Program-made: the position numbers and the translations under genes
Source: Thermodesulfovibrionales bacterium
GTDB lineage: Bacteria; Nitrospirota; Thermodesulfovibrionia; Thermodesulfovibrionales; SM23-35
Direction: 5' to 3'
Assembly (NCBI GenBank): GCA_030019415.1
Contig: JASEEX010000015.1
Span: 1-43,305, forward strand
Length of the DNA: 43,305 bases
Notes under the pieces: model-generated
What the model saw: only the letters and a program-made list of their open reading frames with translations
Database searches by the model: none
Told to the model about the DNA's origin: nothing
Shown: positions 904 to 34,234 of the stretch, piece after piece
How the letters are laid out: each line of letters begins with the position of its first letter
Numbering within the stretch: the first letter of the stretch is position 1

Positions 904-3264
904 ATGCATCAAGACCAATCTATGTTTGATACAGAATATCTTGAATTAATAATCGGGAGTCTTTTCCACGACATAGGTAAATTTTGGCAGAGGGCAGAGA
1001 AGGATAATAAGGATTTGATAAGAAATATTAACGCAGAATTTGGTCTTAGAGGTATTGGAATGCCTGAGCACCAGTTCTGGAGTGCTTATTTTCTGAAAAA
1101 TATTCTTAATGAAGATGATGCTGCAAAAAGAGCAAAGAACCACCACAATCCAGATGACCCATTCGATTACCTTATAGCAATAGCGGATAAACTATCTGGA
1201 GAAGAAAGAGAGGATAGAGAAGGCAGTGAAAGGGCTGATCCATCAATGGAACCCCTTATATCAATTTTTTCGCAGATAAGGGGTATCAGGGAAGAAGCCT
1301 CTGAACCCTCTATATATTATCAACCTCTTGTGGGGGATGAGTTGAATTTAGAAACTTTGTTCCCTAAAGAGAAAAAAGAGGATGCATTTAATCAAAAAAC
1401 TTACAAGACTCTCTGGAAGGATTTTGAAAATACGATAAAGGAAACCAATTTAAGTGTATCCTACGATAAAAAACTTACAAGGCTTTATCATTTTTTAGAA
1501 GTCTTTACAACTTCCATCCCATCCCCTGCTTATTACTCCGTTGCAGACATTTCCCTTTTTGACCATTCAAAAACTACCGCAGCCATCGCTGCCTGTCTCT
1601 ACCAGCATTCAAGAAGAAAAGGGATGATAGATTTTAAAAAAATCCACTATGCTCTTGTGGCAAAATATAAAAAACAACCCTGTAATTTTTCTGAGATGCT
1701 TAATAATGAAGCTTTAACTCTTCTGGCTGGAGATATTTCAGGGATTCAAGGATTCATTTATGATATATCTTCGAAAGGGGCTGCGAAAAGTCTTAAGGGT
1801 CGCTCTCTATATCTATCCCTTCTACCTGAGATTATTTCAAAATATATTGTTAGAAAACTCTCTTTGCCTTATACAAATATCTTATTCTGTAAAGGTGGGC
1901 ATTTTTATCTTCTTTTGCCATTGTTGGATGAGGAAGAGATAAACGAGCTGCAAAGAAAAATAAATGAAATTCTATTCAATGCCCATAAGGGGACTTTCTC
2001 ACTTGTCATTGCTGGTGTCGCTCTCAACTTTAACGACTTTAGCGGTGATACATTGGGGAAGAAATGGTCAGAAGTGTTCGGCAACCTTCAACCTAAAAAG
2101 AAAACTAAATTCAAAGAGATTATGATGGAAAAGCCCAACGAGTTTTTTGGTCCTTTTGAATTTCCGGAAAAACTCTGTAAAGTGTGCCGTTCAAGAGAAA
2201 TCACCAATCTTGAAGAAGAGAAGTGCAGTTTCTGCGAAAGTTTTGAAGAATGCGGTGAAAAAGTTATAAAGAAAAACATTCTTAGAGAAAGGATTATATC
2301 AGAGACGCCTTTACCTACCTCTCCCAATGTCACCGACGTCTTTAAAGCTTTTGGATTTGATCTCGATTTCAGGGAGACCCCAGAGGTTCCAGCGGTTAAC
2401 TATGCTGTGAATGAAAGAAGCTTCTGGAAAAACGGGTGCGATGGGTTCGTATATCTCCCCAACCACACACCTTTAGAAAATGGCGACATATTGGATTTTG
2501 ACCATCTATCTGATAAGGCATCTGGGAAAAAAAGATGGACTGTGCTTAGAGGTGATGTGGATAACTTAGGATTAATATTTGGAAAAGGTCTTGAAAATAG
2601 AAGCATATCAAGAGTTGCTTCTTTGAGCAGAAATTTCAGCTTATATTTTACATTCTGGTTAAATGAGATATGCAAACAGGATAGATTTAAGGATAAAACC
2701 TATGTCATTTATGCAGGGGGAGATGATTTCTTTATTGTTGGAAGTTGGGATGTAATGCCAGGTCTTGCAATGTCTATAAATGAGGATTTTAGAAGATTCA
2801 CCTGTCAGAATGACCATATAACATTGTCCAGTGCCAACTTTATTGTTCCGTCCCAAAAGTATCCTCTCTACAAAGCTGCCGAGATTTGCGGTATAGAGCT
2901 TGATGAGAAGGCAAAGTTGGAGGATAAAAATAGCATTGCTTTTCTCGGAAAAGCTTTTACATGGGATGATTTTGAAAAAGTTTATGAGTTAAAAGAAGCA
3001 ATAATTGAGCTTGTCAAAAATCAAAAAGTCTCGAATGCTCTTATTCAAGCCATTTATTCAGGCTTTGCCGAGTTTGAAGGCTTTAAGAGAGGTGAATATC
3101 CAATCAACAGGGTATGGAGATTGATCTACAGTCTTTCAAGACTTGCCAGAAGACATAGAGTTGAAAATGAAATGGCAAGGATAGAAAAAAGATTAATACT
3201 GTCAAATTATAATCTTGAAATAGGTGGTCTATATGCTGCCAGATGGGCAGAGTTAGAGATTTGA
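904..3264 (+). CDS. cas10: Cas10/Csm1, large subunit of the type III-A (Csm) effector
   Basis: The 786-residue signature protein of a type III CRISPR complex. When crRNA pairs with a target transcript, Cas10 of this class makes cyclic oligoadenylate with its palm domain and cuts ssDNA with its HD domain. Visible here: an N-terminal HD motif (H22-D23 in LFHDIGKF); a first palm domain starting around the GDISGIQGF motif (G276-D277); a zinc ribbon with C425, C428, C441 and C444; and a second palm domain with an intact GGDD cyclase motif at 605-608 (YAGGDDFF). Both catalytic sites therefore look competent. The length is normal for Csm1. The start is supported by an aggagg site. It is the first gene of a tight cas10-csm2-3-4-5-6 operon, and a CARF protein at the operon end fits signalling by cyclic oligoadenylate. 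Confidence 0.96.
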   Translation: MHQDQSMFDTEYLELIIGSLFHDIGKFWQRAEKDNKDLIRNINAEFGLRGIGMPEHQFWSAYFLKNILNEDDAAKRAKNHHNPDDPFDYLIAIADKLSGEEREDREGSERADPSMEPLISIFSQIRGIREEASEPSIYYQPLVGDELNLETLFPKEKKEDAFNQKTYKTLWKDFENTIKETNLSVSYDKKLTRLYHFLEVFTTSIPSPAYYSVADISLFDHSKTTAAIAACLYQHSRRKGMIDFKKIHYALVAKYKKQPCNFSEMLNNEALTLLAGDISGIQGFIYDISSKGAAKSLKGRSLYLSLLPEIISKYIVRKLSLPYTNILFCKGGHFYLLLPLLDEEEINELQRKINEILFNAHKGTFSLVIAGVALNFNDFSGDTLGKKWSEVFGNLQPKKKTKFKEIMMEKPNEFFGPFEFPEKLCKVCRSREITNLEEEKCSFCESFEECGEKVIKKNILRERIISETPLPTSPNVTDVFKAFGFDLDFRETPEVPAVNYAVNERSFWKNGCDGFVYLPNHTPLENGDILDFDHLSDKASGKKRWTVLRGDVDNLGLIFGKGLENRSISRVASLSRNFSLYFTFWLNEICKQDRFKDKTYVIYAGGDDFFIVGSWDVMPGLAMSINEDFRRFTCQNDHITLSSANFIVPSQKYPLYKAAEICGIELDEKAKLEDKNSIAFLGKAFTWDDFEKVYELKEAIIELVKNQKVSNALIQAIYSGFAEFEGFKRGEYPINRVWRLIYSLSRLARRHRVENEMARIEKRLILSNYNLEIGGLYAARWAELEI

Positions 3265-3283
3265 AAAATGAAGGAGGCTTAAC

Positions 3284-3688
3284 ATGAATAAAGAAACGCA
3301 TAAAAACCCACAGTTCCAAAGAAGTCAAGAGAGAACCCGTAGCACTATGCCAACGGACGAGGAGATCGAAGTCATTCTTAGAGGCGACAGTGAAAAAATG
3401 ATTTCTCTTGCAGAATCTTTCGCTAAAGTCAATTTAGGAAGAGCATCTACAGCATCTATTAGAAAAGTTTACTCAGAAGTCAAAAGTATGAAGGAGTATG
3501 ACAAGTACAAGCTTGATTTATTGCGGGCAAAACTCGCCTACGTCTCACATAGACATAAGGATCTATCACCTCTCACCGAGTTATTAGATAAAACTATAAA
3601 AAAAGTGAAGAAAGAATCTTTTAGATACTTCCAGGACTTCTTTCAGGCGATTCTTGCTTACTTCTATAAATATGGGAAGACTACCTAA
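3284..3688 (+). CDS. csm2: Csm2, small subunit of the type III-A effector
   Basis: A 134-residue, charged, mostly helical protein. The segment from about residue 25 onward has the Csm2 pattern: an acidic start, then a helix with LAESFAK, then the STASIRKVYSEVK stretch near 55-67, which is the most recognisable Csm2 sequence. Csm2 subunits stack along the crRNA backbone opposite Csm3 and help hold the target RNA. The first 20 residues are polar and probably disordered. An aaggagg site precedes the ATG. It lies 19 nt after cas10 and 12 nt before csm3. Family assignment rests on this motif, size and gene order. Confidence 0.92.
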   Translation: MNKETHKNPQFQRSQERTRSTMPTDEEIEVILRGDSEKMISLAESFAKVNLGRASTASIRKVYSEVKSMKEYDKYKLDLLRAKLAYVSHRHKDLSPLTELLDKTIKKVKKESFRYFQDFFQAILAYFYKYGKTT

Positions 3689-3700
3689 AGGAGGTGCAAA

Positions 3701-4549
3701 ATGGCAGACATAATATTACAAGGCAAGATTATCATTACAGGCAGGATTAAGGCAGAAACAGCTCTACACGTAGGCGGTTCCAAGACAGGAATTGATATTG
3801 GCGGTGTTGAGAATACCGTTATCAAAGACCATGAAGATAAGCCCTATATCCCTGGTTCTTCACTAAAAGGAAAAATGAGATCGCTCTTGGAAAAGGCAGA
3901 GGGTCTGGCTGCTGAGGATAAAAGAGTTTGGCAAAAGAAGCCTGAAAAAGCAGATAAGAGCGATGGAATTAGCCTACATATTTGTAACGCGCCAGAGTGT
4001 GCTGTTTGCAATATCTTTGGTAGAAATAATGGCCCTTACGAAGTAGTTAAAGATGGCAGTCAATTGAATATAAACCAAACAACACCCAGCCGTCTCCTCC
4101 TCAGGGATGGAAAACTGATAGAATCCTCAATTCCAGAAGATGTCAAGGAAAACCTTGAGCTTGAATGGACAGAGGTTAAATGGGAAAACTCCATTGACCG
4201 CATCACCTCAGCCGCAAATCCAAGACAACAGGAAAGGGTTCCGAGGGGTGCGGAGTTTGAACTGGAGATGGTTTATAGCATCTATACTGAACAGGATAAG
4301 GCACGCTTCAGGAAAGTTTTAAAAGCTATACAACTTCTTGAGGATGATTATCTTGGCGGTAGCGGAAGCAGGGGATACGGAAAGATTAGCTTCAATAATA
4401 TAAAAATCTTCTGGAATACAAACAGTGATTATGAGACTGGAAATACCGATGTCTCTAAAAAGACTCCAAAAAAGGAAGGTTCTCTAAGGGATATCGCTAA
4501 AGAGATTGAAGATAACGCTAAACTAAATGCCCTGTTTGCAACTTCTTAG
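3701..4549 (+). CDS. csm3: Csm3 (Cas7 family RAMP), backbone and target-RNA-cutting subunit
   Basis: A 282-residue RAMP protein. Csm3 forms the helical backbone, measures the crRNA guide in 6-nt steps and cuts bound target RNA. Seen here: the glycine turn LHVGGS (22-27), the IPGSSLKGKMR motif (50-60), a probable zinc site with H93, C95, C100 and C103, and the C-terminal glycine-rich loop at 219-228. In characterised Csm3 proteins the cleaving Asp (D33 in Streptococcus thermophilus) sits in IGAIDSPVIKD. Here the aligned position is Glu37 (IGGVENTVIKD, codon gag). The target-cleavage site is therefore conservatively altered; whether activity remains cannot be told from sequence. An aaggagg ribosome-binding site precedes the start. 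The stop overlaps the ribosome-binding site of csm4. Confidence 0.95.
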   Translation: MADIILQGKIIITGRIKAETALHVGGSKTGIDIGGVENTVIKDHEDKPYIPGSSLKGKMRSLLEKAEGLAAEDKRVWQKKPEKADKSDGISLHICNAPECAVCNIFGRNNGPYEVVKDGSQLNINQTTPSRLLLRDGKLIESSIPEDVKENLELEWTEVKWENSIDRITSAANPRQQERVPRGAEFELEMVYSIYTEQDKARFRKVLKAIQLLEDDYLGGSGSRGYGKISFNNIKIFWNTNSDYETGNTDVSKKTPKKEGSLRDIAKEIEDNAKLNALFATS

Positions 4550-4558
4550 GAGATGCCC

Positions 4559-5524
4559 ATGAAATGTGAAATTGTCAAACTCTTCTTTAAATCCCCTCTT
4601 CATCTTGGAGAAAAAGAGGGCATAATGGAGGATTCCAATTTCATCATACATTCCGATACCCTTTTTTCAGGGTTATGCTATGCCTATCGTACTCTTTACG
4701 GAAAAGATGCCCTTGAAACTTTACTGGAGCAATTCAAGAATAATCCTCCTTTTTTGTTAAGTTCAGCCTTTCCATTTTGTAAAGAATATCTTCTCTTCCC
4801 TGTTCCTTTAAACTTTAGACCACCTGAAGAAGACTTTAAGTATTACAAAAAACTTCAATTAATCCCAAAAGAGCGATGGGAGGAAGTTTGCATTGGCAAA
4901 CCTTTAAAAAAAGATGGCTACGAGTTTGTTCAGGATAAGAAGGTATTGCTACCAACAAATGAGATAGAAGGGCTGAAAGAAAAAGATTATCCAATCTGGG
5001 AGGAAAAGGAGATACAAAGAGTCTCTCTGGATAGCATTACTTCTGCATCTAACCTTTTTAACTTTAGAGAAGTAGCCTTCAAGAAAGACAGCGGATTATT
5101 TTTCCTTCTGGACTGGAGAGATACTTCCTTTGTCAACAGGATAAAGGCAGCCATAAGACTTCTCGGAGAAGATGGAATTGGTGGAGACAGGGGGAGCGGA
5201 AAAGGTGTCTTTAATCCAGAATTTGGTGAACTGGAGATAAGTGATTTAAAAGGGGATTATTATCTACTTCTTTCTTTATTTTTTTCTTCTGAGGGCGAAA
5301 TGCAGGGTTTTGATGGTATATATAACTTCAAAGTGCGAGGAGGTTTTGTATACTCTTTTGATAATACAACAAGACGGAAGAAGTATGTCCGGATGCTTAC
5401 AGAAGGCTCGGTGATTAAAGGTAAAAGACCTGTTGGTTCTTTCGTAGATATTACCCCAGATGATTTTACAGAACATAATGTTTATCGCTACGGATATGCC
5501 TTCTCCATACCTATAGGAGGCTGA
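4559..5524 (+). CDS. csm4: Csm4 (Cas5-like RAMP), crRNA 5'-handle-binding subunit
   Basis: A 321-residue RAMP protein. Csm4 pairs with Cas10 at the foot of the complex and holds the 5' handle of the crRNA. Recognisable features are the N-terminal SPLHLGEKEG turn, the IHSDTLFSGL motif (30-39), which is typical of Csm4, and the glycine-rich loop GIGGDRGSGKG at 206-216. An in-frame ATG also exists at 4553, but it is one base from the aggag site (4548-4552). The ATG at 4559 has a normal 6-nt spacing and is preferred. The ribosome-binding site overlaps the csm3 stop codon, which suggests translational coupling. Confidence 0.94.
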   Translation: MKCEIVKLFFKSPLHLGEKEGIMEDSNFIIHSDTLFSGLCYAYRTLYGKDALETLLEQFKNNPPFLLSSAFPFCKEYLLFPVPLNFRPPEEDFKYYKKLQLIPKERWEEVCIGKPLKKDGYEFVQDKKVLLPTNEIEGLKEKDYPIWEEKEIQRVSLDSITSASNLFNFREVAFKKDSGLFFLLDWRDTSFVNRIKAAIRLLGEDGIGGDRGSGKGVFNPEFGELEISDLKGDYYLLLSLFFSSEGEMQGFDGIYNFKVRGGFVYSFDNTTRRKKYVRMLTEGSVIKGKRPVGSFVDITPDDFTEHNVYRYGYAFSIPIGG

Positions 5525-5525
5525 T

Positions 5526-6680
5526 ATGCCAAACTATAAATATGAAATAGAAGTCTTAACATCTTTACATATTGGCTCAGGAGAAAAGATTTATCCTCTG
5601 GAATATGTGATAGATAAAGAATTTATAAGGGTTAATATGGATAAACTCTTCGCTGAACCTTCTTTTCAGAGAGAAATGTTTATAAGAGAGTCAAAGAAAA
5701 GAGATTTCTATCTTGGTGCCTTTGATAAAAACAATTCTCTCAAATATCCTCTTTATAAAACTGCTATTGCTTTAAGCACAGCCAGTGAATTGACCAATAA
5801 TATTGGAACTCCAAATGCCCTTGTCTTAAACTTTATTAAGGAGGGTAAGAATTTCTATATACCAGGTTCCTCGCTTAAGGGGGCAATCAGGACAGCTATG
5901 TTGTGGAATTTTTTGCAGGAGGCAAATATTAGAAGTGAATTTGAAGGCAGCTTGAAAAAGGAACTCGCGAGGAAAAAAGACCCTAAAGAAGGGCGGAGAG
6001 TTAAAAGAGAGAGATTCTCACTCTCTTCAGAGGAGGCTATTTTAGGAAGGCCCAACTATAGCCTTTTAAAGGCTTTACATGCAGGAGATAGTGATTTTTT
6101 ATTACCTTCTTCTATATCTGTTGAGGTTTCAAGGGTGTTAAGCAAGACAGGAAATGGTTTTAAGTGGAAACAATTAGGACGAGATGGAGGAAACACGGAT
6201 AACCCAGGAGATGCTACCCCTATCTTTTTTGAAGCTGTGAAATCAGGAACCAAAATCAAAGGTAGCATTAAAATAGATGAATTTTTACTTTCAGAAGAGG
6301 TAGCAGCAGCCCTTAAACTCAGAGATATTACATTGTTAAAAGAATTGGCTAAAACTTGCAATGCCTTTGCCTATCACCATCTTGAAAAGGAATGGAATTT
6401 CTTTAAGTCCGTTGGGCTTAAGGAAATTCAGGATGAAATAGAAAGAATTAAAAAAATTTCTCTTACAGACAATGAATTTCTCTTGCACTTTGCATGGGGC
6501 AGTGGATATGAGGCAAAGGCATTAGGGAATACCATAGATAAGTCATTATTTAATGAGATAAGAAATGAATGGAATTTAGGGAAAAGGGGCATGGAATTTC
6601 CAAAGACGAGGAAAATTGTCTTTGAAGATGGAAAACCTAAAACAGTAACAGGCTGGGTAAAGTTAAAGTTGGAGACCTGA
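5526..6680 (+). CDS. csm5: Csm5 (Cas7-like RAMP), head subunit of the type III-A complex
   Basis: A 384-residue protein with two RAMP features: the HIGSG turn at 15-19 and the PGSSLKGAIR motif at 113-122, which is shared with Csm3. Csm5 caps the complex at the crRNA 3' end and is needed for crRNA 3' trimming in studied III-A systems. The middle (about 150-170) is a highly charged Lys/Arg stretch, probably a loop. The start is one base after the csm4 stop region, with aggagg 5 nt upstream. Position between csm4 and the CARF gene, length and motifs fit Csm5 well. Confidence 0.93.
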   Translation: MPNYKYEIEVLTSLHIGSGEKIYPLEYVIDKEFIRVNMDKLFAEPSFQREMFIRESKKRDFYLGAFDKNNSLKYPLYKTAIALSTASELTNNIGTPNALVLNFIKEGKNFYIPGSSLKGAIRTAMLWNFLQEANIRSEFEGSLKKELARKKDPKEGRRVKRERFSLSSEEAILGRPNYSLLKALHAGDSDFLLPSSISVEVSRVLSKTGNGFKWKQLGRDGGNTDNPGDATPIFFEAVKSGTKIKGSIKIDEFLLSEEVAAALKLRDITLLKELAKTCNAFAYHHLEKEWNFFKSVGLKEIQDEIERIKKISLTDNEFLLHFAWGSGYEAKALGNTIDKSLFNEIRNEWNLGKRGMEFPKTRKIVFEDGKPKTVTGWVKLKLET

Positions 6681-6696
6681 TGTTGGAGAAAGCACT

Positions 6697-7980
6697 GTGG
6701 AAGCAGGATTAATCATCACAGTGGGAACCACGGCTGAGCCCCTTGTTAAGGCTATTGAAGAAGCCGCGAATGAAAACATAACATTTATTTATCTCCTCTA
6801 CGGGAGACCTTTCCCCGACCAGACCCCCAATCCTTTTGATATCGCAAATGAGGTTAAAAAGAAGGCCTGTTCCTTAAACCTTAATGTTCGAACCTTTGAA
6901 ATTCAAGATCCAGAGGATTTTGGTTCCTGCCTGTCGACTACCTCGCACGCCATTAATCAAATAAATGAAAATGGCATAAGAAGGTTAGTTGTTAATTTTA
7001 CAGGTGGGACAAAGCCCATGAGCGCAGCCCTTACTCATGGTGTTTTAATAGAACCTGTAGATGCTGAAGTTGTGTTGGACTATACCGGTGGAATAGCAAG
7101 GAATGGGGCAGGAAGAGTAACCAGGGGAGCAATGAGGGTTAAGAGGCATCATGAAACAAGGATAGAGAAGATAGCGAGGGATGCCTTAAACCTCCTTAAA
7201 TACTGCCAATATTCTCAAGCCTTTTCTATTACTCGGAGCTTACCTGACTCTGGAAGATTTGGTTTCTTAAAAAGGGCAATTGAAGCTCTCGATCTATGGG
7301 ATAATTTTCATTATCAGGAATCCTCCGAACTTCTGAAAAAATTAAGACCGCAAACAGATGTCTTAACTGATGTCCCCTTACCTAAAGATATTTTGGAAGT
7401 TATCAAGAAATTGATACAGTCTTCCTTTTCTATTTCGAATGCGACTAATGCGTTATCAAGAATTCAAAATGGGGACGAGATAAAAAAGGCTTTGAAGGGA
7501 ATAAGCAAAGAAGAACTTTTTCTTGTCCCTGCCGATGCCTTAGAGAATGCTGGGAGAAGGTTTCTCGAAAAAAGATATACGGATGCAGTTTTAAGAGCGT
7601 ATAGGGCAATTGAGTCTGCTGTGCAAATAAAACTGATTTCCGTAGACATCAATCCTTGGGATTTTGATATAGAGCGAATTGGGGAGGAAAAGAGACAACA
7701 ATTTTCCGCCCTCACAGAGAATAATACTTTGACATCTAAACTTACTATATCCAGCGGGTTAAATCTCTTAAAGGTTTTTAATAAGGGGATTTCTGAGGAA
7801 TTAGAAAATACCTTGAAGGAGATTCAAGCGACAAGGAATAACAGCTACCTGGAGCATGGTTATCATAAAGTTAATAGAGAGCAAGCAGAAAGGATTATGG
7901 AAAATGCTGTCAGGTTGGTTGGAAATATTTTAGAAATAGATGTGAAACATATTATAGACCAGATTAAACATGAGTTATAG
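6697..7980 (+). CDS. csm6: Csm6-like CARF-HEPN ribonuclease (TIGR02710-type)
   Basis: A 427-residue protein. The N-terminal CARF domain (about 1-150) begins LIITVGTTAEPL and carries the ligand-site motif FTGGTKPMS (TGGTKP 102-107), expected to bind cyclic oligoadenylate made by Cas10. A helical linker follows, then a C-terminal HEPN-like domain with the R-X6-H motif R380...H387 (RNNSYLEH), the usual RNase site of the Csm6 group. It would thus be the collateral RNase of this system. The start is GTG with ggag 9 nt upstream; the ATG overlapping the csm5 stop (6680) is out of frame. It is the last gene of the operon. Its stop is followed immediately by a degenerate CRISPR repeat. Confidence 0.9.
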   Translation: MEAGLIITVGTTAEPLVKAIEEAANENITFIYLLYGRPFPDQTPNPFDIANEVKKKACSLNLNVRTFEIQDPEDFGSCLSTTSHAINQINENGIRRLVVNFTGGTKPMSAALTHGVLIEPVDAEVVLDYTGGIARNGAGRVTRGAMRVKRHHETRIEKIARDALNLLKYCQYSQAFSITRSLPDSGRFGFLKRAIEALDLWDNFHYQESSELLKKLRPQTDVLTDVPLPKDILEVIKKLIQSSFSISNATNALSRIQNGDEIKKALKGISKEELFLVPADALENAGRRFLEKRYTDAVLRAYRAIESAVQIKLISVDINPWDFDIERIGEEKRQQFSALTENNTLTSKLTISSGLNLLKVFNKGISEELENTLKEIQATRNNSYLEHGYHKVNREQAERIMENAVRLVGNILEIDVKHIIDQIKHEL

Positions 7981-8017
7981 GTATAAGTTGACTTCCCTAT
8001 GAAGAGGGAACTGAAAG
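7981..8017 (+). repeat. Solo CRISPR repeat directly after csm6
   Basis: A 37-nt segment matching the array repeat (TTGACTTCCC allele) from its sixth base, with six mismatches overall, four of them at the 5' end. It keeps gaagagggaactgaaag exactly. It has the same orientation as the main array 7 kb away, so the whole cas operon is bracketed by CRISPR repeats. Confidence 0.93.
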
Positions 8018-8450
8018 TATGAGCTAAGAGCATGGAGCCAAGAGCATAGAGTTAAATCAAAAGAAAGGATAAAGAAAGCATGTTCAGATTTGAAGAATTA
8101 GAAATATGGAAGCGGGGAATTGAGGTCATGGATAGGATCTTGGACATAGCGGATAAATTGGAAAAGAGAGGGCTATACAGATTTGCTGAGCAGATGAGGG
8201 GAGCGGGACTATCTGTTGTCAATAACATTGCAGAAGGGTCTGGTTGTGACACGAAGTTGGAGTTTAAGAAGTTTCTGGGATATTCGAGAAGGTCAATTTA
8301 TGAAGTTGTTTCAATGCTAAAAGTATTTAAACGGAGGGGTTATATAGATTCCGAAGAGGACATTGTTGCTGAATTAGAAGAACTGAGTAGAATGACGATG
8401 GGCTTTAAGAAAACTCTCTAAGCTCTTTGCTCTTTGCTCCGTGCTATATC
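8018..8450. mobile_element. Putative element: four-helix-bundle gene between inverted heptamer-periodic arms
   Basis: The left arm (8018-8052) reads in 7-nt words: tatgagc, taagagc, atggagc, caagagc, atagagt. The right arm (about 8412-8446), read on the minus strand, gives atagcac, ggagcaa, agagcaa, agagctt, agagagt. The arms are thus imperfect inverted repeats sharing the period and a g-a-g-c core. They enclose a single gene (8080-8421). The element sits between an intact CRISPR repeat end (8017) and the 3' 23 nt of another (8451-8473), as if it had replaced a spacer and the start of the next repeat. No transposase is present. Calling it mobile is inference from this placement. Confidence 0.6.
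8080..8421 (+). CDS. Four-helix-bundle protein (23S rRNA intervening-sequence / Avd-like family)
   Basis: A 113-residue helical protein with the family hallmarks: N-terminal FEELEIWKRGIEV, then LYRFAEQMRGAGLSVVNNIAEGSG (motif NNIAEG 48-53), then a basic helix around FLGYSRRSIYEV and a last helix ending in FKKTL. Family members are encoded in insertions in bacterial 23S rRNA genes. The Avd accessory protein of diversity-generating retroelements has the same fold and binds a reverse transcriptase and RNA. The molecular role of stand-alone members is not settled. Here it lies alone between heptamer-periodic inverted arms inside CRISPR repeats. An aagga site precedes the ATG. No CRISPR function should be assumed. 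Confidence 0.9.
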   Translation: MFRFEELEIWKRGIEVMDRILDIADKLEKRGLYRFAEQMRGAGLSVVNNIAEGSGCDTKLEFKKFLGYSRRSIYEVVSMLKVFKRRGYIDSEEDIVAELEELSRMTMGFKKTL

Positions 8451-8473
8451 CCCAATGAAGAGGGAACTGAAAG
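8451..8473 (+). repeat. Truncated CRISPR repeat (3' 23 nt)
   Basis: Exact match to positions 15-37 of the array repeat (cccaatgaag, then agggaactgaaag). The 5' 14 nt are replaced by the heptamer-periodic right arm of the four-helix-bundle element. It marks the right edge of that insertion and shows the array once extended here. Nothing repeat-like follows before the next gene. Confidence 0.92.
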
Positions 8474-8531
8474 GGTACTGACTCAAAAGAGGTCAAGTTT
8501 GTCCTGAGGCGGGAATTAAAAAATCCTGATT

Positions 8532-9521
8532 TTACTTCATAAAGAACTGTGAAATATATCGAATTGCGAGAAAGATAATAATTATTCCTAACATGAGTTT
8601 GATATACTTTTGGGGGACGAATTTCTGGAATCGTGCACCGAGATACATGCCTGCAAATCCCCCTGCCCCAAAGAGAAAACCAAGAAGCCAGTCTGGTGAA
8701 GTAGGCAATCCAGATGGGGCAGGCATAACACTGTAAAAGAACACACCTGCAATAGAGGTTAAAAACGTTCCCATCAAGGCAGCGCCAGCAATGGTATAAA
8801 CTGGTAGATGGAAGATTGCAACGTAGAAGGGTGCAAGAATTGCTCCACCACCGATTCCATAAGTACCTCCGATTATCCCGACAATAAAGGCAACGAGAAA
8901 TAAAGGGAGTGTGCTGAATGAAAATCTTTCCCCCCAGAACTCATATTCTATTCTCTTTAAATTTGCTGAGACTGTTTTAACCACGGCCTCTGGGGGAAGA
9001 CCTGAGGCTATCCTGGACTTTTGTTGTTCCTTAATCTGTTTAGACCTCTCCCTGAATTTTTCCTCGAGTGCCCTCATCTGTCTTCTCTTTGTTGCTGTTG
9101 CTTTTGCTGTAAGATCATAGAGAAGACGTCCACCGATATAAAGAAGCACACATCCAACAAAGAGCTTGAAGGCTCGTGGATCAGGCAGATACTTTACCCT
9201 GAGGTAATATCCAATAAGTACACCCGGAAGTGTTCCTACAATGACAATATTGGTCAGAGGCCATGCCATTCGGCCTTCCTTGAGATAGCGGTAAACCCCA
9301 CTCGGAATTGCGATAATATTATAGACGAAATTGGTGCTACTTACGGCTGGACTTGTAAAATTAAGAACACTCACCTGGAATGGCAACAGGAGGAAAGCAC
9401 CCGAAACACCCCCCATGGAGGTAAAGGTTGAGACGATTAAAGCGACCAGAGGGGGAATAAATATATATGTTTTAACTCCAGATACAGGGAAATGGAGGTA
9501 TAGAAAATCTAAAATTCCCAC
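8532..9521 (-). CDS. TauE/SafE family membrane permease (sulfite/sulfonate exporter type)
   Basis: A 329-residue membrane protein. Two hydrophobic halves each begin with the family's glycine-rich signature: GGVSGAFLLLPFQ near the N terminus and GGTYGIGGGAILAPF in the second half. Each half has about four membrane segments. Between them is a charged cytoplasmic loop (roughly 140-200) rich in Arg/Lys/Glu, longer than in minimal members. Family members move small sulfur-containing or organic anions; the substrate here is unknown. The frame starts with GTG at 9521, and an agggaaa stretch upstream could serve as ribosome-binding site. The ATG two bases upstream is out of frame and stops at once. 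It is transcribed alone, with no sulfur gene beside it. Confidence 0.88.
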   Translation of the reverse strand: MGILDFLYLHFPVSGVKTYIFIPPLVALIVSTFTSMGGVSGAFLLLPFQVSVLNFTSPAVSSTNFVYNIIAIPSGVYRYLKEGRMAWPLTNIVIVGTLPGVLIGYYLRVKYLPDPRAFKLFVGCVLLYIGGRLLYDLTAKATATKRRQMRALEEKFRERSKQIKEQQKSRIASGLPPEAVVKTVSANLKRIEYEFWGERFSFSTLPLFLVAFIVGIIGGTYGIGGGAILAPFYVAIFHLPVYTIAGAALMGTFLTSIAGVFFYSVMPAPSGLPTSPDWLLGFLFGAGGFAGMYLGARFQKFVPQKYIKLMLGIIIIFLAIRYISQFFMK

Positions 9522-9614
9522 ATTTTATTTTCCCTAAACGTAATTAATGTATCAAATTAAAAATTCTTATGAAATTATTATTCAGACAAAAAATAAAAAA
9601 ACACCTCTTTAAAT

Positions 9615-10646
9615 TTAAACTTTCCTCCCATATTTATGCACTGCCTCAACCAGGGCAACTGCATTTTCAACAGGTGTCTCTGGCAAGATTCCGTGTCCGA
9701 GATTGAAGATATGGCCCTTTGCAGCTTCCCCTTTCCATAAAATGTCTTTGACCCTCTCTTCAATCTCCTCTTTTGAAAGAAAAAGTGCACACGGGTCAAG
9801 GTTTCCCTGAACAACCACTCTCCTTCCAAGTTTTTTTATTGCATCAGCTATGTCAATCCTCCAATCAATTCCGATAACATCAGCACCTGATTTCTTTACC
9901 TCTTTAAGTATCCCTGCGCAATCATTTGCGAAATAGATTATCGGAACCGCTTCTCTCTTTAACTCAGAAATAATTTTCTTAAGATAGGGGAGCACGGTTT
10001 CTTTATAGTCAAAAGGTGTGAGCACACCTGCCCATGTATCAAAAATCTGTACTGCCTGGGCACCAGCCTTTATCTGGACGGAGAGATAGGAGATAACAGT
10101 TAGAGTTAATTTTTCCATGAGATAATTGAATAGCCTGTTGTTCTGAAACATCATCTTTTTTGTATGGAGAAAATTCTTTGAACCACCACCCTCAATCATA
10201 TATGTAGCAAGTGTAAAGGGGGCGCCTGAAAATCCTATCAGTGGTACCTTATCCTTAAGTTTTTCTCTCAAGATCTTAATTGTCTCAATAACAAAGGGCA
10301 TGTCGTCTTCTGCATCCGGCATAATTAACCTGTCAACAGCAGATTTGTTTCTTATCAGCTCATTGAGGATAGGCCCGTTTTTATCAGAAAATTTAAGGGA
10401 CACACCCATTGCCTCAACAGGGATGAGAATGTCAGAAAATAGTATGGCTGCATCAACTCCAAGGATGTCAACAGGCTGAAGCGTGATCTCTGCAGCAAGT
10501 TCAGGCGTCTTACAGAGCGTAAGAAACTCAACATCGGCTCGTACTGCCTGATATTGAGGAAGATATCTCCCTGCCTGGCGCATAAGCCAGACAGGTATAT
10601 ATTCAACTCTTTCTCCACGACATGCCCTGAGGAAGGTATCGTTCAT
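9615..10646 (-). CDS. hemE: Uroporphyrinogen decarboxylase
   Basis: A 343-residue enzyme of full length. It removes four carboxylates from uroporphyrinogen III to give coproporphyrinogen III. The signature RQAGRYLPQY (23-32) carries the substrate-binding arginines; the FSDILIP segment follows the conserved Asp region; the YFANDCAG and IGIDWRIDI strands of the TIM barrel are present. It starts two bases after the ahbD stop, so the two genes form one transcription unit. The pairing suggests a heme route in which HemE supplies coproporphyrinogen and the radical SAM protein finishes heme b. Confidence 0.97.
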   Translation of the reverse strand: MNDTFLRACRGERVEYIPVWLMRQAGRYLPQYQAVRADVEFLTLCKTPELAAEITLQPVDILGVDAAILFSDILIPVEAMGVSLKFSDKNGPILNELIRNKSAVDRLIMPDAEDDMPFVIETIKILREKLKDKVPLIGFSGAPFTLATYMIEGGGSKNFLHTKKMMFQNNRLFNYLMEKLTLTVISYLSVQIKAGAQAVQIFDTWAGVLTPFDYKETVLPYLKKIISELKREAVPIIYFANDCAGILKEVKKSGADVIGIDWRIDIADAIKKLGRRVVVQGNLDPCALFLSKEEIEERVKDILWKGEAAKGHIFNLGHGILPETPVENAVALVEAVHKYGRKV

Positions 10647-31122: not shown

Positions 31123-31152
31123 TTGACAGTGTAATTCCTGTAGAATTATCAT
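31123..31152 (+). promoter_or_regulatory. Possible promoter of the yebC-glmU-glmS operon
   Basis: TTGACA (31123-31128), an 18-nt spacer and TATCAT (31147-31152). The transcript would carry a leader of about 170 nt containing the inverted heptamer tract. Confidence 0.5.
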
Positions 31153-31179
31153 AAAAATGGCTCTTGACTAACGAGGGAA

Positions 31180-31322
31180 ATTACCAATAACCAAATTACA
31201 ATAACCAAATAATATCCAATGACCAAATTACAATAAGCAGACATTTGTTTGGTTATTGGTAATTGGAGCTTATTTGATCCGCCTGAGGCGGATTGGTTAT
31301 TGATTATTGGTTATTTAATTTG
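31180..31322. repeat. Inverted heptamer-periodic tract (ccaataa / ttggtta words)
   Basis: Left arm (31183-31240): accaata, accaaat, tacaata, accaaat and related 7-nt words. Right arm (about 31250-31322): ttggtta, ttggtaa, ttggagc, then ggttatt, gattatt, ggttatt, the inverse words. A short palindrome, atccgcctgaggcggat, is set into the right arm at 31277-31293. It would fold into a long hairpin just upstream of yebC. No gene. Confidence 0.8.
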
Positions 31323-32708: not shown

Positions 32709-34171
32709 TGAAGAACGTAACTAATAGCAACGTTCTGAACTTAGCAGGTGTCGTCTTGGCTGCAGGTCTTGGAAAGAGGATGGGTTCATCTTTACCAAAG
32801 GTTCTCCATAAGATTCATGGTACCCCAATGCTTCAGTATATCTTAAATACCCTTTATGGACTTAAACCGCAAAAGATTGTTGTTGTAGCAGGAAAACATT
32901 TTAAGGAAATAAGGGAATCTATAAAGGATGACAGTTCAATCTCTTTTGCACAGCAGAAGGAGGCAAAAGGTACAGGAGATGCACTCCTGAAGGCATGGCC
33001 AGCTCTCAAAGGATTTAAAGGGACAGTTATTGTTATCAATGGAGATATCCCCCTTATTACTCGAGAGACCCTCAAGAAATTTTTAACCCTCCATAAGAAG
33101 AAAGGTAATGTTATTTCAATACTCTCGTTTATGGCGAAAGAGCCAGGTTCATATGGCAGGATTATAAGAGGTGAGGCAGGTAATATAACATCCATTGTTG
33201 AGGATAGGGATGCCACGGATCTACAGAAAAATATAAAGGAAGTCAACAGCGGAATATATGCCATTGAGTCTGAGGCCTTTCCCATTCTAAAAGAGATAAA
33301 GCTAAATGAATCGAAAGGTGAATATTACCTGACCGACATGATTAGTATCGCAAGGAATAAGGGGATAAAGGTAAATGCTTATTGCACCGGCTCCGAGGAT
33401 GAGTTGATGGGGGTTAATACTCAGGAGGAGCTTGAGAGGGCCCGGCAGTTAATGAAAGACAGGATCATTAAAAGATGGATGGACAGAGGCGTGAGTTTTG
33501 TAGATACCGTTTCAGTATCTATATCTTCAGATGTTGAGATAGGTAAAGATACGCTCATCTATCCAAATGTTCATCTCGAAGGTAACACAAGAGTTGGAAG
33601 GGGGTGCACAATATATCCAAATGTTCGGATTCATAACAGCATCATAGGTGATGGGGTCGTTATCAAAGATTTGACTCTTATCGAGGGGTCTGTTGTAAAG
33701 AATAGGGCCTCTGTGGGACCCTTCACTCACATAAGGCCGGGTTCTGAGATTGGGAAAGGTGCAAAGATAGGTAATTTTGTTGAGGTTAAAAAATCAGTAG
33801 TAGGCTCCGGTACAAAGGCAGGCCATCTTACTTATATCGGTGATTCAAAGATAGGGAATAATGTTAACATAGGTGCAGGTACAATAACCTGTAACTATGA
33901 TGGTTACAAAAAGCATATTACAGTTATCGAAGACAACGTTTTTGTAGGAAGTGATTCCCAGCTTGTTGCGCCTGTAAAAATAGGTGAGGGCGCGTACATT
34001 GGTGCAGGTTCTACTATAACAAAAAATGTCCCTTCCATGGCCCTTGCCTTGAGTAGGGTACAACAGAGGCATATCGAAGATTGGGCACTTAAAAGAAAGT
34101 TAAAAGTGAGAAGTCAAAAGTCAAGAGCTAAAAATAGAGATAAAAGGAAAAAGGTAGTTAGTAGCAAGTAG
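32708..34171 (+). CDS. glmU: Bifunctional GlmU: UDP-GlcNAc pyrophosphorylase / glucosamine-1-phosphate acetyltransferase
   Basis: 487 residues. It makes UDP-GlcNAc, the precursor of peptidoglycan and lipid A. The N-terminal domain (about 10-235) carries LAAGLGKRMGSSLPKVLH; the C-terminal domain (about 255-460) is a left-handed beta helix of hexapeptides (IGKDTLIYPNVHLEG and following), with IRPGSEIGKGAKIGNFVEVKKS and TCNYDGYKKH for acetyl transfer. It starts with GTG overlapping the DUF502 stop. Residues about 465-487 are a Lys/Arg/Ser tail that is encoded by a 7-nt-periodic tract and is not part of the family core. Next gene glmS makes its substrate precursor. Confidence 0.96.
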   Translation: MKNVTNSNVLNLAGVVLAAGLGKRMGSSLPKVLHKIHGTPMLQYILNTLYGLKPQKIVVVAGKHFKEIRESIKDDSSISFAQQKEAKGTGDALLKAWPALKGFKGTVIVINGDIPLITRETLKKFLTLHKKKGNVISILSFMAKEPGSYGRIIRGEAGNITSIVEDRDATDLQKNIKEVNSGIYAIESEAFPILKEIKLNESKGEYYLTDMISIARNKGIKVNAYCTGSEDELMGVNTQEELERARQLMKDRIIKRWMDRGVSFVDTVSVSISSDVEIGKDTLIYPNVHLEGNTRVGRGCTIYPNVRIHNSIIGDGVVIKDLTLIEGSVVKNRASVGPFTHIRPGSEIGKGAKIGNFVEVKKSVVGSGTKAGHLTYIGDSKIGNNVNIGAGTITCNYDGYKKHITVIEDNVFVGSDSQLVAPVKIGEGAYIGAGSTITKNVPSMALALSRVQQRHIEDWALKRKLKVRSQKSRAKNRDKRKKVVSSK

Positions 34172-34234
34172 TAAGTAGTTAAGGGGATTGCTCTTTTACT
34201 ACTGACTACTGACTACTGACTACTGACTACTGAT
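34091..34234 (+). repeat. Inverted heptamer-periodic tract spanning the glmU 3' end and the glmS start
   Basis: Within glmU the words are agttaaa, agtgaga, agtcaaa, agtcaag, agctaaa, aatagag. From 34154: gtagtta, gtagcaa, gtagtaa, gtagtta. After a 20-nt core (aaggggattgctctttt) come five perfect ctactga words up to the glmS start codon, the inverse of the gtagtXa words. The RNA would form a long hairpin ending at the GTG of glmS. No ribosome-binding site is visible in its place. Confidence 0.85.

Follow-up and report, generated by a model that had tools for sequence, protein, structure and literature searches.

The question raised by this locus is why a small gene of the S23 family lies between CRISPR repeats, enclosed by two arms of repeated 7-nt words, and how it came to be there. 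The window, i.e., the whole stretch of 43,305 nucleotides that was analysed, is one entire contig of a draft genome of 1.94 Mb in 166 contigs. A CRISPR array on the plus strand at 46-830, with ten exact core repeats (GATGCAGTTGACTTCCCAAYGAAGAGGGAACTGAAAG and variants) and truncated terminal repeats, is separated from the unit under study by the type III-A operon csm1-csm5 and a CARF-HEPN effector gene (TIGR02710; together 904-7980, plus strand). All parts of the unit and its borders lie on the plus strand as well. A complete, slightly degenerate CRISPR repeat of 37 nt (7981-8017), whose first 7 nt are degenerate compared with the array repeats at 46-830, abuts the left heptad arm (TATGAGCTAAGAGCATGGAGCCAAGAGCATAGAGTT..., 8018-8056). 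The S23 gene follows at 8080-8421, next to it the right heptad arm (GCTCTTTGCTCTTTGCTCCGTGCTATATC, 8422-8450), which is the inverse of the left one, and finally the last 23 nt of a CRISPR repeat (8451-8473), a duplicated or truncated target that is identical to 7995-8017 in 22 of 23 nt and has counterparts with this arrangement in other genomes. A count of the pattern GAAGAGGGAACTGAAAG over the 1.94 Mb genome gave 12 occurrences, all of them on the contig of the window. The initial annotation had described mutually inverse heptad arms around 8080-8421, set between an intact repeat ending at 8017 and a 23-nt remnant starting at 8451, and our analysis bears out both observations. At the very start of the contig (1-45), ACTTCCG words precede a 5'-truncated CRISPR repeat, and another genome contains a near-identical unit end (locus L078). 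The segment at 11-40 on the plus strand (CTTCCGCACTTCCGAACTTCCGCTCTGTC) agrees by eye with the right-hand end of the unit at L078 in 27 of 29 nt, and is probably the right terminus of a second S23 unit cut off by the contig end.

The 113-aa open reading frame at 8080-8421 matches the S23 family profiles PF05635 (E 7e-25) and TIGR02436 (E 4e-24), and the AlphaFold2 model of the protein is a four-helix bundle (pLDDT 97.3). The best fold matches of this model are the S23-family structures 2gsc and 2rld, the former also being matched by sequence. The 2gsc protein, Xcc0516, is made up of five four-helix bundles according to a paper cited in PMC3936711. The S23-family gene is the single open reading frame of the unit, in which no transposase gene was found; a template/variable repeat pair was not detected within 6500-10500, and PADLOC and PHROGs returned no match. 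The left arm consists of agagcat-like words with a 14-nt tandem period (2.2 copies at 88%), the right arm of GCTCTTT (2.6 copies at 100%). Aligned in reverse complement, the arms reach a score of 31, compared with 29 for the 99th percentile of mismatched left/right pairs. They also pair in the predicted RNA fold (z -2.5), and none of 100 shuffles was equally stable. In the window copy alone the heptad signal is modest, and that it exceeds chance follows from the family-wide statistics.

For these statistics, we collected 95 distinct copies from 41 genomes of the same order (the own genome and 40 related ones) and a second sample of 79 loci from other phyla. The own genome has nine S23-family copies, most of them with 7-nt words on both sides; the words vary between copies and are inverse to each other inside one copy. 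For the 95 copies, identity at lag 7 was 0.342 in the left and right 160-nt flanks, with further peaks at lags 14 and 21, compared with a background of 0.26-0.28 inside the genes, at a distance of 400-700 nt and at most other lags, lag 8 giving 0.29-0.30. The lag-7 peak was also found in the 79 loci, among them those of cyanobacteria (0.414), Alphaproteobacteria, CPR, Chloroflexi and Bacteroidetes. Of 92 copies, 57 had own left and right arms that matched better than the 95th percentile of mismatched arm pairs (4.6 copies expected), and a far-flank control showed no excess. The periodic flanks that had been predicted for homologues are therefore present in both samples, and the transposase-free mobile unit with an S23/Avd-like protein as its sole product, as it had been proposed, proves to be one of a family with periodic inverted arms throughout the phyla tested.

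The similarity of the arm 7-mers was then compared with protein identity in non-syntenic pairs. It is significant from about 55% protein identity and strong above 65%, where the DNA further out from the arms is not conserved. Below 50% identity these pairs gave no signal; since the correspondence holds for close relatives only, an arm word that is a fixed code of the protein sequence was rejected. The AGAGCAT word of the window is common to its nearest relatives L089, L091 and L033. Such a correspondence between word and clade is the pattern that co-evolution or recognition would give, and common descent of the whole unit may explain it too. At L259 and in the gene downstream of L033, heptad arms are translated as a lipoprotein signal peptide, so that here the repeats have turned into coding sequence. 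Elsewhere, an S23 unit is flanked by two tRNA genes (L161, 315-902), and S23-family copies are present on Riemerella plasmids; in viral contigs only seven distant relatives of the S23 protein were found. A cyanobacterial plasmid carries an S23 gene between cas6 and cas4 (L249, NZ_CP112875.1). Its arms, with long AAAAGCT runs on one side and AAAAGCC on the other, look direct and not inverted, which counts against the explanation we favour below.

Among the 95 copies, those in or directly against CRISPR arrays are L007 (the unit of the window), L022, L034, L063, L064, L082, L084, L092 and L097, and L078 is surrounded by apparent array remnants. The array-associated copies, about 10 of 95, belong to at least three clades, and array residence requires at least three changes on the tree of the 95 copies. 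A further array outside this sample (G038:C77, L274) contains two gene-less mini-units and a decayed copy. If arrays made up 1% of the sites open to insertion, finding 10 of 95 copies in them would have a probability of 5e-8, and with a share of 5% one of 0.02; in ten of the genomes with array copies, the repeat core numbers no more than tens per genome, which corresponds to roughly 0.1% of the DNA. Given that the copies are not independent of one another, we regard this enrichment as moderate. Stronger evidence comes from the clade of alignment A1, which is array-bound: every readable member lies in or beside arrays or their remnants (L082, L084, L092, L097, L119, L209, L210 and L211, L119 being from a Deltaproteobacteria MAG). 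L120, from an Acidobacteria MAG, and L212/L126 are more distant from A1 and array-resident, and the still more distant L123 and L124 lie outside arrays (L122 is the contig of L084, L126 that of L212, and L121 is masked at the junction). The family as a whole is not confined to CRISPR-Cas loci, as most of the 95 copies are found elsewhere. In the same genome as the window, an S23 unit with AATGAGC words lies directly upstream of cas2-cas1 (L005, 540-1460), preceded by a gene that may be CRISPR-related. At G000:C76:1474-2779, and at comparable positions in many genomes of the order, cas1 is accompanied by a second open reading frame, about 276-290 aa long and weakly similar to Cas1.

In nearly all array copies, the unit directly adjoins the 3' end of a complete repeat, and a small GC-rich hairpin is often present at its left end (e.g., CCGCCTGAGGCGG, CCGCCATTGGCGG and GCACACCAGAGTGTGC). 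On the right side it is followed by a repeat from which the first 12-14 nt are missing (in L120, whose repeat is 30 nt long, about 7) and which retains its last 23-25 nt. This remnant measures 23 nt in the window and in L120, 23-24 nt in L212, 24 nt in L082, L097, L119, L210, L211 and both L274 mini-units, and 25 nt in L092. The left junction together with the 23-25 nt remnant was observed in L007, L082, L092, L097, L119, L120, L210, L212 and L274, and for L211 on the right side only; the repeats involved have several different sequences. Exceptions are L022, with the 5' 24 nt of a 30-nt repeat, and L063, L064 and L209, with just 11-13 nt. The initial annotation had suggested that the unit took the place of a spacer together with the beginning of the following repeat, which stands as one reading; a target duplication of about 24 bp would fit the remnants at several repeats about equally well. 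A simple duplication is weakened by the finding that private variants of the left repeat are absent from the right remnant in all three informative cases (window, L119 and L209). Furthermore, the left repeat of L119 ends in GCGAC and the repeats of its array in GAGAC, a difference that suggests a transfer in which recombination took place within the repeat. For copies outside arrays, a masked direct-repeat test yielded a small excess of flanking direct repeats. Its sources are periodic repeats left after masking, tRNA genes and perhaps a few duplications that have decayed, and a general 24-nt target duplication is not evident for such sites as a class. Array copies are mostly located at the 3', leader-distal end of the array, a position that may be the one least damaging to old spacers.

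Gene-less mini-units with the same ends occur beside gene-bearing units or in the same array at L022, L063, L082, L097, L120, L209 and L274. They are about 100-180 nt long and have the arms and no intact gene; those of L274 keep the last codons of the S23 gene, showing that they are internal deletions. Beside them, on the reverse strand between two repeats, L274 has an insert of about 450 nt with an ASCH-like open reading frame (by eye). An intergenic site between genes for an NHL-repeat protein and a lipoprotein differs between genomes: it is empty in G002 and G025, occupied by an AGAGCAA unit in G003, G012 and G018, and occupied in G014 by a unit from another S23 clade, whose words are CGGTAAC. 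At the same site, G008 has arms like those of G014 without the gene, and G013 has a lone heptad run that is read as the signal peptide of the lipoprotein. As these genomes belong to different genera, comparison of this site reveals presence and absence, not a dated insertion. Movement between near-identical genomes was not seen, the empty alleles being found at family or order distance. Taken together, the mini-units and empty alleles favour mobility. Aperiodic flanks and a lack of empty alleles, named at the outset as signs against a mobile unit, were not what we observed; flanks are periodic and empty alleles occur at another site of the family. Two gene-less heptad hairpins in the window are possible relatives of the unit: GTAGTAA / ACTACTG at 34146-34233, between glmU-like and glmS-like genes (z -5.3), and AATAACC / GGTTATT at 31140-31315, upstream of a YebC-like gene (z -2.7 for 31140-31270).

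The orientation of the units is biased. Array copies with readable context have the S23 gene in the direction of the crRNA, and outside arrays the gene is in sense orientation in 106 of the 113 copies whose two neighbours are co-directional. This would fit a constraint at the RNA level, though the same bias may be usual for operon genes and the RAYT control comprised two cases.

Several alternatives could account for an S23 gene at this place. One of them, which gives the gene a working role as a CRISPR-Cas accessory and sees in the arms either regulatory or incidental repeats, takes up reports of S23 genes in cas loci near cas4 and cas6 (PMC3936711) and of the 23S rRNA IVP among CRISPR-linked domains (PMC10910872), to which the unit directly upstream of cas2-cas1 and a Pseudanabaena plasmid copy between cas6 and cas4 can be added. 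We consider it unlikely: about 90% of the sampled order-level copies have the same arms outside arrays, decayed genes and gene-less mini-units are found among the array copies, PADLOC gave no match, and presence of cas1 is unlinked to presence of the unit (22/32 genomes with units vs 6/9 without, p=1). Equally improbable to us is movement of the unit as RNA with a reverse transcriptase, in which the S23 protein would act like Avd and an RT-Cas1 could serve in arrays. PF05635 is structurally related to Avd (PMC10053308), an RNA intermediate agrees with a hairpin RNA and the sense orientation, and reverse transcriptase genes lie near or are fused to cas1 in G018, G014 and G030. Against this, the genome of the window has nine copies and no PF00078 match in its entirety, 21 of 29 RT-less genomes of the order carry units (21 of the 32 unit-bearing genomes are without RT), and the association of RT with the units, scored by presence, is not significant (p=0.24). 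RT-driven movement was therefore rejected. What had been observed at this locus is confirmed and extends far beyond the window, and its interpretation is supported in part, the Avd-style reverse transcriptase being the part that found no support.

Mobilisation in trans by Y1 (RAYT/IS200-type) transposases, with the unit as a single-stranded hairpin element, has a strong co-occurrence on its side, Y1_Tnp being present in 31 of the 32 unit-bearing genomes and in 2 of the 9 others (p=1.2e-5, 41 genomes), and the small hairpins at the left end of many array copies would suit such an element. The co-occurrence may merely mark genomes rich in mobile DNA, and the inspected RAYT genes have ends unlike those of the units (GGGACACATCCCAT, GGGTCAGGTC and GGGGACGGTTC) and no clear lag-7 peak. 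Y1 insertion is not known to produce a target duplication, and the repeat remnant would be left without explanation. RAYT mobilisation was rejected on account of these ends, and we rate it a little lower still than the two preceding proposals. The RAYT (Y1_Tnp) genes at L278-L297 have conserved inverted ends such as GGGACACATCCCAT and GGGTCAGGTC. The least credible of the alternatives is that Cas1-Cas2 integrated the unit as if it were a very long spacer and made the second-strand cut within the repeat. It would explain why the left end falls exactly on the repeat-spacer boundary in most array copies, and Cas1 was found in the searched order-level genomes that have such copies. Substrates of Cas1-Cas2 are as a rule of spacer size; the units are mostly leader-distal in their arrays, and the same units occur outside arrays, including in genomes without cas1. 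Since RT is absent, the RAYT ends differ, cas1 is not associated and the units run sense, we favour an intervening-sequence-like unit that would persist in RNA which is processed or co-transcribed, and that would be moved by a putative agent acting in trans.

On this view, the unit at 8018-8450 is probably, with considerable room for doubt, one copy of a mobile element with hairpin arms that is akin to the S23 intervening sequences found in 23S rRNA, inserted at a repeat edge and spread in trans. Sequence comparison establishes the membership in the family, the periodic complementary arms, the recurrent junction, the gene-less internal deletions and the empty alleles elsewhere. In the mechanism we propose, the unit, a single S23 gene between complementary arms built of 7-nt words, would have entered the array at the 3' edge of a repeat, with its gene pointing the way the crRNA is transcribed. 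The arm RNA would fold into a stem that isolates the insert in the transcript, as in rRNA intervening sequences, and insertion into a processed non-coding RNA such as that of a CRISPR array would thereby be tolerated. The S23 protein, a pentamer in solved relatives, may recognise its own heptad arms; copies would spread through a putative enzyme acting in trans and, between arrays, by recombination via the CRISPR repeats. The S23 gene near CRISPR systems would then be largely a passenger and not a Cas accessory.

The rRNA intervening sequences have an S23 open reading frame and a 28-bp terminal stem, and are excised by RNase III (PMC4990558); S23 open reading frames are also reported in 16S and 23S insertions of CPR (PMC11270868). 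The unit resembles the 23S rRNA intervening sequences of Coxiella, Leptospira and CPR in its protein family, single open reading frame, complementary arms, size of about 430 nt and a processed non-coding RNA as target (PMC4990558, PMC11270868). It differs in that its target is a CRISPR array or intergenic DNA and not rRNA: no S23 unit inside rRNA was found in 16 distant loci, one of which lies between two tRNA genes, and that of the window lies between CRISPR repeats. The clade-specific 7-nt periodic arms may be a further difference, and the array junction has a 23-25 nt repeat remnant. Intergenic tandem 7-nt words are shared with the heptameric repeats known as cyanobacterial STRRs, TAACTGA of Beggiatoaceae and the G-rich heptamers of Xanthomonas and Nostoc (PMC4679880, PMC4692102). 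The available portions of these reports describe no link to S23 or complementary arms, whereas here heptads and S23 occur together in every phylum tested. With Avd of diversity-generating retroelements the protein shares its fold class and a distant homology (PMC10053308), but neither a reverse transcriptase nor a template or variable repeat was detected alongside the unit, and it was not assigned to these retroelements. The 23S_rRNA_IVP genes of cas loci belong to the same protein family beside CRISPR-Cas (PMC3936711, PMC10910872); these studies list the gene as associated, whereas here it appears as cargo of a mobile unit with defined junctions, which would be a different reason for the association. 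Like MITEs and REPINs, the family has gene-less hairpin derivatives that share ends with coding copies; unlike them, it has no family-wide conserved terminal sequence, and no transposase with matching ends was found.

The S23 family, the rRNA intervening sequences, S23 genes in cas loci and heptameric repeats are thus already known. In the accessible parts of the open-licence literature, we found no description of heptad arms around S23 genes or of the array junction, and the heptad-armed S23 unit and its junction with CRISPR repeats may be new. On a broader scale, and only tentatively, these units could represent a pan-bacterial class of mobile elements without a catalytic protein, whose clade-specific 7-nt arms would be recognised by a pentameric S23 protein. 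Some clades would be specialised for insertion next to the 3' end of CRISPR repeats, duplicating about 24 bp, and the class might be one source of bacterial heptameric repeats and of rRNA intervening sequences.

The favoured reading of the window unit as a mobile hairpin element joins three loose ends, namely the intergenic heptameric repeats, the rRNA intervening sequences with S23, and the recurrent appearance of 23S_rRNA_IVP in lists of CRISPR-associated genes. Should it hold, S23 genes near CRISPR systems would largely be passengers of a mobile hairpin, and CRISPR arrays would be hosts of a selfish element. The ligand of S23/Avd-type pentamers would also become testable, the candidate being the heptad arm of the protein's own unit.
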